The translations under genes were made by a program, and so were the position numbers. A stretch of DNA of 64,000 nt. Origin: Phyllobacterium sophorae (GTDB lineage: Bacteria; Pseudomonadota; Alphaproteobacteria; Rhizobiales; Rhizobiaceae). Under the pieces are notes generated by a model, which saw nothing but the letters and a program-made list of their open reading frames with translations, was not told the origin of the DNA and ran no database searches. Below are positions 28,960 to 35,002 of this stretch, piece by piece. Location of the stretch: NCBI RefSeq assembly GCF_003010965.1, contig NZ_PGGM01000001.1, positions 62,001 through 126,000 on the forward strand, written 5' to 3'. Each line of letters begins with the position of its first letter. Position 1 is the first letter of the stretch.

Positions 28960-30075
28960 TTATTGCTGGAAGTAGCTGTACTTGCCGTCTTCGCCCTTTT
29001 TCCATTCGTACATGACGTAGCCTGGGAGCTTCGGATCGCCCTTTTCGTCAAAGGCAATGTCGCCAAGAACGGTCTTGAACGGGCCTTTTTCTTTCATGGT
29101 CTTGGCAACGGTTTCTGGATCATTCGATCCAGCGGCCTTTGCTGCATCGGCAATGACCTGAGCGGCTGCATAGGCGTAGAGCGTGTAGGCTTCCGGCTCA
29201 AAGCCCTGTGCACGGAACTTCTCAACGAGTTCCTTGTTTGCGGGATTCTTGCTCGGGTCTGGACCAAAAGTGTTGAGTGTACCTGCAACTGCATCGCCGG
29301 CGATCGAAGCAAGCTCGTTCGAAACGATACCGTCACCGGAGATGAAAGTAACCTTCAGGCCCTGATCAGCAAGCTGACGGATGATCAGACCAGCTTCGGT
29401 GTGCAGGCCACCCCAATAGAGAACGGTCACGCCGGCTTCCTTTGCCTTGGCGATCAGTGCAGAGAAGTCCTTGTCGCCGACGTTAACGCCTTCGTACATG
29501 GCTTCCTTGATGCCCTTGGCATTCAGGGTCTTCTTGGTCTCGTCAGCGAGTCCCTGGCCATACGGCGTCTTGTCGTGAACGACCGCAATCTTGGCGTCCT
29601 TGAACTTCTCGGCAATGTATGTCCCGGCCACCACACCCTGCTGGTCATCGCGACCGCAAGTACGGAAAGTGTTCCACAACCCGCGTTCGGTGAAGACGGG
29701 GTTTGTTGCGGCAGGAGTGATTTCGAGAATGCCGTTTTCCGCATAGACTTCCGATGCCGGAATTGACACGCCAGAGTTGAAGTGGCCGATAACGAATTTT
29801 ACGCCGTCAGCAACGAACTTGTTAGCAACGGAAATGCCCTGCTTCGGATCGGAAACGTCGTCACCAAGCGAAAGCTTGACCTGCTCGCCATTGATACCAC
29901 CGGCAGCATTGATTTCGGCGATAGCGGCCTCTGCGCCCTTCTGCAGCTGAGCGCCGAAGGCGGCGTTCGGGCCAGTGAGCGGACCACCGACACCAATCAA
30001 GAGATCAGCATAGGCGTGACCACTCAAAGCGAGCATCGCAGCAAGTGCAACGCCCGAAAACAGTGACTTCTTCAT
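28960..30075 (-). CDS. livJ: Branched-chain amino acid ABC transporter binding protein
   Basis: This 371-residue secreted protein has signal peptide [23 protein letters not shown] (1-23), followed by [22 protein letters not shown] and the rest of the LivJ/LivK type I fold ([47 protein letters not shown]). It captures Leu/Ile/Val-type ligands for LivHMGF. ATG 30075 begins the signal peptide. It is the last gene of the operon, 126 bases after the DUF6867 gene, and ends in a terminator. Confidence 0.92.
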
Positions 30076-30201
30076 TTGAAAACTCCCATTTTCTAGGTAC
30101 TTACCAAACCCCTCGCGATGACCCTTTTCATCGCTTGAAGTGCACATTTGCCGATTTCCCGGCGGTTGTCACGCTGATTCATTTCGCACCAGCGAGATTG
30201 A

Positions 30202-30611: not shown

Positions 30612-31343
30612 TTAGTGACGACCACCTTCGAGATAGGCCGCACGTACTTCTGGATTGGCAAGAAGATCGGCGCTGGAACCGCTCATTTTGACGATCCCGT
30701 TGACCATCACATAGCCGCGATCAGCCAGTTTCAACGCGCCGAAGGCATTCTGCTCGACAAGGAACACCGTCAATCCAGTATGCTTGTTCAGTTCCTTGAT
30801 GGCCTCGAAAATGTGCTTGATGATCAATGGTGCAAGACCGAGCGAAGGCTCGTCGAGCAGCAACAATCGCGGGCGGGCCATCAGCGCACGGCCAATGGCC
30901 AGCATTTGTTGTTCGCCGCCCGATAATGTGCCGCCGCGCTGATTGATGCGTTCTTTCAACCGCGGGAACAGATCGAACACCATACGCGAATCTTCATCAA
31001 AGAATTGAAGATTATCGAGACTTGCACCCATCTGCAGGTTTTCCTGCACGGTCATGCGCGGAAAGATGCGGCGGCCCTCCGGCGATTGGGCAATACGCAA
31101 ACGCGCGATTTCATGCGTCGGCAATTTTGTGATGTCTTTCCCGTCGAAGACAATTCGGCCGGTCCGAGCGCGCGGCATACCGAAGATCGTCATCATCAGC
31201 GTAGACTTGCCAGCGCCATTGGCGCCAATCAGCGTAACGATCTCGCCGGGATTCGCGTGCACGGTAACACCGCTCAGTGCGCGAATGTTGCCGTAATAGG
31301 TTTCTACATTCTCGATGCTGAGAAGGGCTTGTGGTTCCGCCAT
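30612..31343 (-). CDS. livF: Branched-chain amino acid ABC transporter ATPase LivF
   Basis: This 243-residue ATPase has Walker A GANGAGKST near 38-46, signature LSGGEQQMLAIGRALM and Walker B LLLLDEPSLGL. The NVETYYGNIRALSGV start identifies LivF rather than LivG. Its first base overlaps the last base of livG, so the two are coupled. Confidence 0.94.
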   Translation of the reverse strand: MAEPQALLSIENVETYYGNIRALSGVTVHANPGEIVTLIGANGAGKSTLMMTIFGMPRARTGRIVFDGKDITKLPTHEIARLRIAQSPEGRRIFPRMTVQENLQMGASLDNLQFFDEDSRMVFDLFPRLKERINQRGGTLSGGEQQMLAIGRALMARPRLLLLDEPSLGLAPLIIKHIFEAIKELNKHTGLTVFLVEQNAFGALKLADRGYVMVNGIVKMSGSSADLLANPEVRAAYLEGGRH

Positions 31344-32695
31344 TACTTGGCCCCTCCGGTCTTCTTAGGCGCCGGTTTCGCCTGACTCTCTTTTGCCAGT
31401 TTCTTCGCTTGGCCAATCCAGTCTTCGCGGGCGATGCGTCCGTCAAAGTCAAGGTAGGCTTCAGCCGCGATCACATCCGCTTTTTTCCATGCAGCAATCT
31501 GGTCGAAGTGGAAAATGCCATGTTCGTTGAGCTTGCGCTCGTTGACCGGACCTATACCCTTGATCAGGATGAGCCGGTCTGCCTTGCCGCCGCGCGGTTC
31601 AGTCAGCGCGTTCGCTGTAGCCCCGGCTTTGATTGCCCCAGCCTTCGCAGCTGCTTCTGTTGCGGTTGATACTGTCGTCGCGGACGTCTTCTTGACAGCA
31701 GGCGTTTTGGCACGCCTCGCCTTGGCCGCGGATGTTGCGGGGATCAACTCAACTGGCCCGGCATCCGGGTGGGTTTCCACGATTTCCTGCAGCGCCTCTG
31801 TCGATAGCAGGTCAACGGCCGCGGTGATATCGTCAACGCCGGCGGCTTCAGCCTGCTCGATGAGTTCAACAACTTCCTCATCTTCAACGCCGAGATAGGC
31901 TGCGATCACCTTAGGATCGTTCTTGACCATATCCGGTGTGCCATCGGAAATCTTCGTGCCATACTCAAGAACGACGACATGGTCGGAGATTTCCATGACC
32001 ACGGACATGTCATGTTCGATAAGCAGAATGGATGTACCGGTTTCTGCGCGGATATCGAGCAAGAGCTTATTCAATTCTGCCGATTCACGTGCGTTCAAAC
32101 CTGCGGCCGGCTCATCGAGGCAAAGCAGTTCAGGTTCCGTGCACATCGCACGGGCAATCTCGAGGCGGCGCTGCGCGCCATAGGGAAGATCGCCGGCAGC
32201 GTCGTCTGCCCTATCGACGAGATTGATCTTCTCCAGCCAAAAGCGAGCTTTCTCGATCGCGTCTGCGGCCGCTTTTTTGTAAGTTGGAAAGCCAAGCAGT
32301 CCAAGAACAGTAAAGCCGGAGGAAAGCATTAGAGGATTATGCTGGGCGACGAGTAGGTTTTCCAAAACAGTAAGGCCCGAAAACAGCCGGATATTCTGGA
32401 ACGTGCGCGCAACCTTCGCCTTCTTCGTGATGACGAAATCGGCCATCCGCTCCAGAAGATATTCCTCTCCATTCTGACGGGTCAGTGTCAGCATGCCTTC
32501 AGTCGGCTTGTAGAAGCCGGTGATGCAGTTGAAGACCGTGGTCTTGCCTGCACCATTCGGGCCGATAAGTGCGGTGATCGCTCCCCGCTTGGCCTCGAAG
32601 TTCAAGTCATTGATGGCGATAAGACCACCGAATTTCATGGAGAGGCGTTCAACGCGCAATATTGCGCTTGTATTCTTCTGCACTTCCGAATCCAT
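31343..32695 (-). CDS. livG: LivG ATPase with C-terminal helix-hairpin-helix extension
   Basis: At 450 residues this is far longer than the usual 255-295 of LivG. Residues 1-265 are a normal LivG (GPNGAGKTT Walker A near 43, VARTFQNIRLF Q-loop, YGAQRRLEIARAM signature, CLDEPAAGLN Walker B). Then comes an acidic stretch (EDEEVVELIEQAEAAG) and an Ala/Lys/Thr-rich linker. The final domain of about 60 residues (LILIKGIGPVNERKLNEHG, IFHFDQIAAW, GRIAREDWIGQAKKLA) is a helix-hairpin-helix motif like those attached to NuoE and ribosomal L21 in Alphaproteobacteria. The fusion is seen directly. What the tail binds is unknown. It overlaps livM and livF by one base each. Confidence 0.9.
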   Translation of the reverse strand: MDSEVQKNTSAILRVERLSMKFGGLIAINDLNFEAKRGAITALIGPNGAGKTTVFNCITGFYKPTEGMLTLTRQNGEEYLLERMADFVITKKAKVARTFQNIRLFSGLTVLENLLVAQHNPLMLSSGFTVLGLLGFPTYKKAAADAIEKARFWLEKINLVDRADDAAGDLPYGAQRRLEIARAMCTEPELLCLDEPAAGLNARESAELNKLLLDIRAETGTSILLIEHDMSVVMEISDHVVVLEYGTKISDGTPDMVKNDPKVIAAYLGVEDEEVVELIEQAEAAGVDDITAAVDLLSTEALQEIVETHPDAGPVELIPATSAAKARRAKTPAVKKTSATTVSTATEAAAKAGAIKAGATANALTEPRGGKADRLILIKGIGPVNERKLNEHGIFHFDQIAAWKKADVIAAEAYLDFDGRIAREDWIGQAKKLAKESQAKPAPKKTGGAK

Positions 32696-34089
32696 CAGCC
32701 GTGCCCTTCTTTCGTAAACTCACCTGACACCGACTTGCGTTTATGCAGGAAGGCGCTCGGCTCCCGGCTGCCGACAAAGCCTCGCGGCTTCCACACCATG
32801 ACCACGATCATAGCGAGGCCAAATAATAACATGCGGTAGAGTTCTGGCGTAAAATCATTGCCAAAGATGCGCTTCAGGAACTCCAGTTCTCGCAAGAGTT
32901 CGGTGCCCCCGATCATGACGGCTGCGGCGATGGCGATACCTACCAGTGATCCCATGCCACCCAGAACTACCATCGCCAGAATGATTGCCGATTCGAGGAA
33001 GACAAAGGATTCGGGGCTGACGAAGCCCTGTCGTGCTGCAAAGAACGATCCGGCAAAACCTCCGAACATGGCACCCGTGGCAAAGGCCGTCAGCTTGGTT
33101 GTTGTCGTGTTGATACCGAGCGAACGGCAGGCGATCTCGTCTTCGCGCAAAGCCTCCCAGGCACGGCCGATCGGCATGCGCCTCAGACGAATCGTGACCC
33201 ACGCGGTCAGGAGCGCGAGAAGTAGAATCAGGTAGTAAAGGAAAATCTTGTAATAGACGCCGGAATTTGGCAGGCCGAGCAGCGCCGCAAAACCGGTGGG
33301 CCCCGGGGTAAATGGAATGCCAAACAACGTTGCCTTGGCAATACCGGAGATACCGAATGTACCCTTGGTTACGACGGTCCAGTTGATCAGGATCAGGCGA
33401 ATGATTTCACCGAATGCCAGTGTCACGATGGCCAGATAGTCCCCCCTCAGACGCAGGACGGGAAATCCGAGGATGACCCCCCAGGTCGCGGCAAAAATAC
33501 CCGCCATAGGCAAGAGCAGCCAGAACGAAAAGCCAAAATGAGTGGAGAGCAGGGCGTAGGAATAGGCGCCCACCGCATAAAAGGCGACATACCCGAGATC
33601 CAGCAGCCCAGCAAGGCCCACGACGATGTTCAATCCCCAGGCAAGCATCACGTAAATGAGGATCTGGATACCGAAATTATCGACATATTTGAGCGATCCC
33701 TGCAACCCGCCCATGATCGAGCCATTAGAGATGGTGAGGATCAGGATCACCAGGAATGGGTAGGTAAACAGCAGCCCGAGACCGATCTTGGGAAAGCTCT
33801 TACGGAAAGCTGACGGCTCTTTCGCTTCGACGACGCGCTTGGTCTTCTTGCGCTCCTCGCGCCACGGCGCGGTATACGTGATGGCGAAGCGGGCAAATGC
33901 GGCAACAAGCACGAATATCGTCAGAAGTCCCCAGCGCTGTGTGAGGATAAGTTCGTTGCGGATGTTCTGGTCCGTGCGGAAACCGACCACCAGGCAAAAC
34001 AAGCCCAGCGCAAGTGCACCCGCAACAAGCCCTTCCTTCAGGGCTTTCGCGAACACGGAATCCCGTTCTGTTGATTGAATATCGGCCAT
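32695..34089 (-). CDS. livM: Branched-chain amino acid ABC transporter permease LivM
   Basis: This 464-residue inner-membrane permease has an N-terminal extension with about three helices before the BPD_transp_2 core ([42 protein letters not shown] in pieces). The EAA-like loop is [30 protein letters not shown] 34089 is chosen; it starts four bases after the livH stop. Long LivM proteins with an extra N-terminal region are usual for true Liv systems. Confidence 0.93.
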
Positions 34090-34093
34090 GCGC

Positions 34094-35002
34094 TTAAACC
34101 TTTTCGACTTCGGGCCGGCCAAGAATGCCCGACGGAAGGAAAATCAGTACGATCGCCAGGATCGAGAACGCCGCGACATCTTTGTAGTCGATGGAGAAAT
34201 AGGCGGACCAAAGAGCCTCGATCAGGCCGATCAGCAGGCCGCCAACCACCGCGCCAGGCAACGATCCGATACCGCCAAGTACTGCCGCCGTGAAAGCTTT
34301 GACACCCGGCACGAATCCATCGGTGAATGAAATGACCCCGTAGAACATGAGGTAGAGTGTACCCGCAACGGCGGCAAGCATGGCACCCATCACGAACGTA
34401 GTGGAGATCGTCCGATCGACATCGACACCCAAAAGCGCCGCCATCTTGCGATCTTGTTCACAGGAACGCTGCGCCCGTCCAAGCGTCGTCTTGTTGACAA
34501 GATACCAGAATGCCGCGAGCAGGATCGCTGTGACGATGATAATGACCATCTGCTTGTAGGCAATGGTGATGTTCGTGCCGTAGACCGTGATGCCGCCATT
34601 GACCAGCGGCGGGATCGGCTTGTTGCGAGGACCCTGCGTGACCTGCACGAAATTGGATAGTGCAATCGACATGCCGATTGCTGTAATCAACGGCGCCAGG
34701 CGGAATGAACCGCGCAGCGGCCGGTATGCCAGACGCTCGATCGTCCAGCTCCACAGCCCCGTCAGCAGCATGGCCACGATCATCATCAGCAGCAGCGCCA
34801 GCACGACCGGCACACCGCCGATGAAAGTTGTCAAAGCAAGAAAAACGATCATCGCCATAAAGGCGCCAAGCATGAAAACATCGCCATGGGCGAAGTTGAT
34901 CATGCCGATGATCCCGTAGACCATCGTGTAGCCGATTGCGATCAGGCCATAAATTGAACCAAGCGTCAGACCATTGATCGATTGCTGGATGAAGTACTCC
35001 AT
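34094..35002 (-). CDS. livH: Branched-chain amino acid ABC transporter permease LivH
   Basis: This 302-residue inner-membrane permease starts [20 protein letters not shown] and contains [19 protein letters not shown], both hallmarks of LivH. It forms the channel with LivM. ATG 35002 is chosen; the open frame begins six codons earlier with an unlikely start. First gene of livHMGF-DUF6867-livJ. Confidence 0.93.

Follow-up and report, generated by a model that had tools for sequence, protein, structure and literature searches.

A PhaH-type helix-hairpin-helix tail on LivG-type importer ATPases of Phyllobacterium and other Rhizobiaceae, a candidate nucleoid tether

PhaH, a phasin of Caulobacter crescentus, is reported to bind polyhydroxybutyrate (PHB) granules through its N-terminus and DNA nonspecifically through a C-terminal helix-hairpin-helix (HhH) domain, which places the granules along the nucleoid; deletion of phaH leaves the granules disorganised (reviewed in PMC13052382; PhaH work, Salinas et al. 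2023, doi 10.1111/mmi.15124). We describe a C-terminal domain of the same family on a LivG-type ATP-binding cassette (ABC) ATPase of Phyllobacterium sophorae, encoded within a 64,000-nucleotide stretch of contig NZ_PGGM01000001.1 (the window; Table 1). The two proteins share a C-terminal HhH, and the N-terminal part of PhaH binds a large cellular body; the host here, however, is an importer ATPase rather than a PHB granule protein, and DNA binding by the LivG copy is predicted from the relationship. We propose that the tail may dock the importer on the nucleoid, and put the probability of this reading at about 0.5.

Protein-O of the Dinoroseobacter shibae reaction centre-light-harvesting 1 complex (RC-LH1; PDB 8yy9 chain O) has the same C-terminal domain (E 1.7e-14) but, unlike LivG, is anchored in a photosynthetic complex by transmembrane helices. 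The RC-LH1 paper reports a long flexible linker and a C-terminal domain untraced in the map, gives the function of protein-O as unknown, and places its gene between nuoE and nuoF (PMC12079452). Among solved structures, the LivG tail is best matched by PDB 9wqv chain a ('NADH:ubiquinone oxidoreductase 41 kd complex i subunit'; E 5.7e-18), and the closest tail by score is that of alphaproteobacterial NuoE with a C-terminal extension (NF009040 / PRK12373; E 3.2e-24), whose host is a complex I subunit. Ribosomal proteins L21 and S2 with C-terminal extensions (NF008915, NF008916, NF008966) carry the LivG tail's domain as well. Extra C-terminal domains also occur on the importer ATPases MalK, MetN and ModC, where a substrate- or regulator-binding regulatory domain lies near the ATPase, but these are not HhH domains on a long linker.

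A conserved HhH tail on the LivG-type ATPase

The ATPase part of the 450-residue open reading frame (ORF) matches PF00005 (1.4e-28) and PF12399 (2.6e-11) of Pfam, both above cut-off. Because the whole ORF scores 325.6 bits against the NCBIfam LivG equivalog NF008449, under its cut-off of 362, the protein is called LivG-type; it is predicted to be a branched-chain amino-acid-type importer ATPase, with a putative substrate. The last 85 residues match NCBIfam models of tail-bearing proteins at E 3.2e-24 to 4.3e-12, and all 102 domains sampled from the tail family match each of five such models at 1e-4, which bears out the relationship to the tails of NuoE and L21 proposed in a sequence-only reading of the window. 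Moreover, all 102 match the PhaH model (NF045508) at E 1e-4 or better, and the window's copy aligns with PhaH positions 169-233 (E 3.6e-12). Homology to PhaH is confined to this C-terminal part, the whole protein scoring 52.6 bits against a cut-off of 250. The PhaH model exceeded that cut-off solely in Caulobacter among 14 control genomes, and gave 13 matches at 1e-10, none above cut-off, in 142 genomes of the class. Pfam HHH_5 scored 16.4-19.2 bits for the LivG tail, under the gathering threshold of 27. The tail has the HhH fold; the AlphaFold model of the domain was good, while that of the whole protein was poor (mean predicted local distance difference test score [pLDDT] 54.9) and was not used.

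The fused frame is present in all 20 Phyllobacterium genomes examined, source genome included, and in several other genera. Together with the profile matches, this confirms the LivG-HhH fusion first read from the sequence, and it excludes a spurious fusion of two genes by frameshift or misassembly, which the same reading had named as a possible undoing; nothing was found in favour of such an error, to which we give next to no weight. The fusion is a conserved, selected feature across many genera of the family (Rhizobiaceae) and not an oddity of a single genome.

Selection differs between the parts of the protein. The ratio of nonsynonymous to synonymous change (dN/dS, by Nei-Gojobori over the 20 Phyllobacterium genomes) was lowest in the ATPase (0.029) and the HhH (0.032), followed by the acidic stretch (0.049), and highest in the last 16 residues (0.202) and the linker (0.228). 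Synonymous change among these genomes is large (pS 0.64). The HhH is 69 residues long in all 20, and the linker ranges from 29 to 113. Within the genus, the HhH is under strong purifying selection, about as constrained as the ATPase, and the linker is loose. A low dN/dS beside a loose linker of variable length is what one expects of a folded, functional domain on an unconstrained tether. Nine positions are invariant across the 102 aligned domains (LivG numbering: L375, G380, G382, G393, Q399, R420, R423, W426 and Q429).

The extension beyond the ATPase stands as it was originally read, but the acidic stretch, which that reading counted in the extension, does not belong to the HhH module, its start being the normal end of LivG. 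LivG-type ATPases without the tail have the same core and the same acidic start after residue 270 (seen in many tail-less LivGs of the family) but soon end, without an HhH.

Distribution and history of the fusion

Of the 141 genomes surveyed in the family, 98 contain a match to LivG with E no higher than 1e-85, and the best match of each was read (in one genome a weaker second match was left unread). Of these 98 orthologues, 34 carry the HhH and 64 do not (one of the latter, L241, is truncated by a contig end), and a broader HhH model added no further carriers. Tail-less family LivGs stop 14-102 residues past the ATPase (median 29), except for L201 (371-2044, +; genome G114, 1.9 Mb), in which LivG and LivF form a single 557-residue ORF without an HhH.

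In the order, 150 genomes gave 74 matches at 1e-95. The best 30 loci were read: five lie in the family (four fused) and 25 in other families (none fused). Judged from their alignments, none of the remaining 44 extends beyond query residue 368, and thus none shows an HhH; those that pass query residue 301 run through stops. The survey of LivG homologues suggested in the sequence-only reading thereby places the fusion in the family alone among the loci read.

A further 80 named loci, the best by similarity to the LivG tail in a tail-profile search, comprised 55 LivG fusions, 24 tails on other proteins and one truncated by a contig end (L083); selected in this way, these counts are not frequencies. 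Genera with the LivG fusion among them include Phyllobacterium, Mesorhizobium, Aminobacter, Brucella/Ochrobactrum, Pseudochrobactrum, Nitratireductor and Hoeflea. Within one genus group (g41), two genomes (L149 and L150) differ: one has a LivG with the HhH, the other a LivG that stops after a linker-like stretch and lacks the domain, a difference that represents a recent loss or gain. One LivG-HhH (L078) lies on a contig titled Bacillus subtilis SK6B4 and scores like those of Pseudochrobactrum; this record is probably mislabelled or contaminated. A plasmid search with the tail returned eight records, none covering 80% of it.

On a quick ATPase tree (98 rows, with 39 of its 95 inner branches left open and row L201 also containing LivF), HhH presence required 15 changes, at least four of them forced by well-supported branches. 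On a tree of the HhH, with only 77 columns, neither a single clade of LivG tails (approximately unbiased test, p-AU 0.94) nor one of LivG and AapP tails together (0.80; see below) was rejected. These trees are compatible with independent gains as well as with losses of the LivG tail, and with a separate as well as a shared origin of the AapP tails. The patchy occurrence, the number of changes and the unrejected single clade would all suit a tolerated passenger, that is, one functionless inherited fusion lost repeatedly. Against this stand the ATPase-like dN/dS of the HhH, maintained despite large synonymous change, and the recurrence of the same design on a second ATPase; we regard a passenger as highly improbable.

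The livG-type gene lies among ORFs that, by eye, read as the other parts of such an importer (Table 1). The GGAGGGG within its tail ends 7 bases ahead of the start of the next ORF, at a TAATG overlap. We rejected the idea that the TGGAK conserved at the C-terminus serves in binding, as its codons carry this GGAGGGG, a simpler reason for conservation. A GG within the last 14 residues occurs in 64 of the 98 family LivGs and in 27 of the 34 with an HhH, and is hence not universal.

Table 1. Features of the livG-type gene and its neighbours (positions in the window).
Feature	Position	Strand	Basis or remark
livG-type gene, ABC ATPase + C-terminal HhH, 450 aa	31343..32695	-	ORF, Pfam + NCBIfam matches
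ABC ATPase, residues 1-270	31886..32695	-	Pfam ABC_tran 29-197, BCA_ABC_TP_C 248-272
Acidic stretch, residues 271-310	31766..31885	-	E/D-rich start = usual LivG C-terminus
Low-complexity linker, residues 311-365	31601..31765	-	
HhH domain, residues 366-434	31394..31600	-	
C-terminal end, residues 435-450	31346..31393	-	Last codons contain GGAGG-type ribosome-binding stretch of next gene
GGAGGGG, ribosome-binding-like, within livG tail, for next gene	31351..31357	-	
TAATG overlap, livG stop / start of next ORF	31341..31345	-	
livF-type ABC ATPase ORF, 243 aa	30612..31343	-	Named by eye from sequence
livM-type permease ORF, 475 aa from first possible start	32695..34122	-	Named by eye from sequence
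livH-type permease ORF, 308 aa	34094..35020	-	Named by eye from sequence
livJ-type substrate-binding protein ORF, 395 aa from first possible start	28960..30147	-	Named by eye from sequence

Other carriers of the domain

One HhH match led to a second importer ATPase, of the polar amino-acid (GlnQ/AapP) type, with the domain at its N-terminus. Its best NCBIfam name is GlnQ (319.1 bits, below the cut-off of 379); AapP is used here as a further name for the type. ATPases of this type were found in 131 of the 141 family genomes, and 33 loci were read, namely the best 10 and a further 23, among them all remaining listed frames of at least 340 residues (frames below that length have scarcely any space left for an HhH). 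Seven of the 33 have the domain, all within the best 10 (L333:1412-2530, -; L335-L338; L341; L342). One further ATPase of this type (L344, genome G096) has a long low-complexity N-terminal extension with no detectable HhH. A LivG orthologue is absent from all seven HhH-bearing genomes, where the best match shows 39-47% identity in a frame of 279-319 residues. The N-terminal fusion occurs in 7 of the 43 genomes that lack a LivG orthologue and in 0 of the 98 that have one (Fisher p 1.7e-4, uncorrected for kinship, the seven genomes coming from only five genera).

The 106 tailed proteins in 102 loci were sorted into 33 predicted transmembrane proteins, 31 NuoE, 14 L21, 8 LivG and 20 others; these labels, based on simple patterns and a hydropathy threshold, are crude, and one PHB depolymerase landed in the transmembrane group. 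Pfam run on four example hosts confirmed S2, L19 and a PHB depolymerase, the latter two also confirmed by NCBIfam. Besides importer ATPases, the hosts are large assemblies or membrane proteins, PHB depolymerases included. For example, the depolymerase PhaZ has a C-terminal HhH tail at two loci (L296:504-2081, -; L302:486-2240, -), which fits PhaH on the same granules. Another host has a predicted transmembrane segment and three matches of the domain (L300:450-2228, -). HhH-family proteins with predicted transmembrane segments also occur in bins titled Nitratifractor and Campylobacteraceae (L084, L093, L104); if these metagenome bins are right, the family reaches beyond Alphaproteobacteria.

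Ribosomal hosts include L19 (L265:486-1229, -), and S2 and L21 are tailed in several genomes too. Tails on these three proteins, with a weak profile similarity to S13 and eL32, could indicate that the HhH binds RNA (ribosomes, mRNA or rRNA) and couples the importer to translation. However, tails on ribosomal proteins could just as well attach the ribosome to DNA, matches to ribosomal proteins in the PDB search lie at E 0.03 to 0.55, and the L21 tails are net acidic; RNA binding is in our view unlikely.

The source genome encodes four copies of the domain: on LivG, on NuoE, on L004, a protein for which a single transmembrane segment is predicted, and on a 199-residue protein (L003:1108-1704, contig C47). 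The last has a hydrophobic N-terminal part, which falls under the transmembrane threshold used, followed by the HhH, and its gene lies, by eye, between nuoF and nuoG. By analogy, it may be the non-photosynthetic counterpart of protein-O. Its place in the nuo operon, with the position of the D. shibae protein-O gene, hints that protein-O belongs with complex I.

Nucleoid docking and what it would mean

Fold neighbours of the HhH model (VIA) are mostly N-terminal domains of RadA/Rad51, with HhH regions of Y-family polymerases among them. Two observations weigh against nucleoid docking: NusA and SAM domains are also among the neighbours (VIA), and related folds bind proteins; and the net charge of the domain is near neutral (+2.2 and +4.5 in LivG, -0.6 in NuoE, -2.2 in L21). 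Against viral structures, Foldseek listed 35 matches with E values up to 10, none of them at 0.001. The same two observations, together with hosts that are assemblies of many kinds and the NuoE, L004 and L003 copies in the source genome, would fit a protein-docking domain, through which one common partner or another HhH of the family (e.g., the small membrane-type HhH proteins) gathers the importer, complex I and other assemblies. No partner was identified, however, and PhaH, the only relative whose function has been described, reportedly binds DNA; we consider protein docking a possible but less probable alternative. We hold nucleoid docking to be the most likely explanation because the LivG tail matches the HhH part of PhaH. 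In its favour we also count the presence of the fusion throughout the genus, the constrained HhH beside its loose linker, the RadA/Rad51 and polymerase fold neighbours, the recurrence of the domain on GlnQ/AapP-type ATPases in genomes that lack a LivG orthologue, and the large assemblies and membrane proteins among its other hosts.

Under nucleoid docking, the tail would be a portable module in which a PhaH-type HhH, some 70-150 mostly low-complexity residues from the LivG ATPase, hangs at the cytoplasmic face of the importer. Its hairpin and the invariant Arg, Trp and Gln residues would bind chromosomal DNA weakly and without sequence specificity. Importer complexes of the inner membrane would in this way be fastened to the nucleoid and distributed along it. 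That the LivG copy binds DNA, that it acts as a tether in living cells and that transport is affected at all are inferred. The 'nucleic-acid- or protein-binding tail' and 'tethering' of the sequence-only reading were the right class of idea, which the PhaH relative now directs towards nonspecific binding of nucleoid DNA; nothing in the analysis shows the regulatory role or the sensing that it had also suggested.

In the open literature searched, which leaves out most subscription journals, we found nothing joining LivG with helix-hairpin-helix, nothing joining helix-hairpin-helix with L21, NADH-quinone oxidoreductase subunit E or RC-LH1, and nothing on the NuoE C-terminal extension in alphaproteobacteria; COG3743 is mentioned there in work on polyhydroxyalkanoate (PHA) polymerases. 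The tail family was already known, with one member of reported function. What is new is the attachment of this domain to ATPases of amino-acid importers, at the C-terminus of LivG (a form absent from the literature searched) and at the N-terminus of the GlnQ/AapP type (a form not searched for).

More tentatively, Alphaproteobacteria may possess a portable nucleoid-docking tail, found on LivG, AapP, NuoE, the hydrophobic protein of the nuo operon, S2, L19, L21, PhaH, PhaZ and protein-O, that fastens large machines, membrane complexes included, to the chromosome, with which they would spread and segregate; in the case of LivG, the ATPase itself would anchor a transporter on DNA. The relation to PhaH offers one testable explanation for the tails found on complex I, on ribosomal proteins and on protein-O of the photosynthetic complex. 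If the tail does bind DNA, an amino-acid importer of the inner membrane would be tied to the chromosome through the subunit that drives it, which would connect nutrient uptake with the nucleoid.
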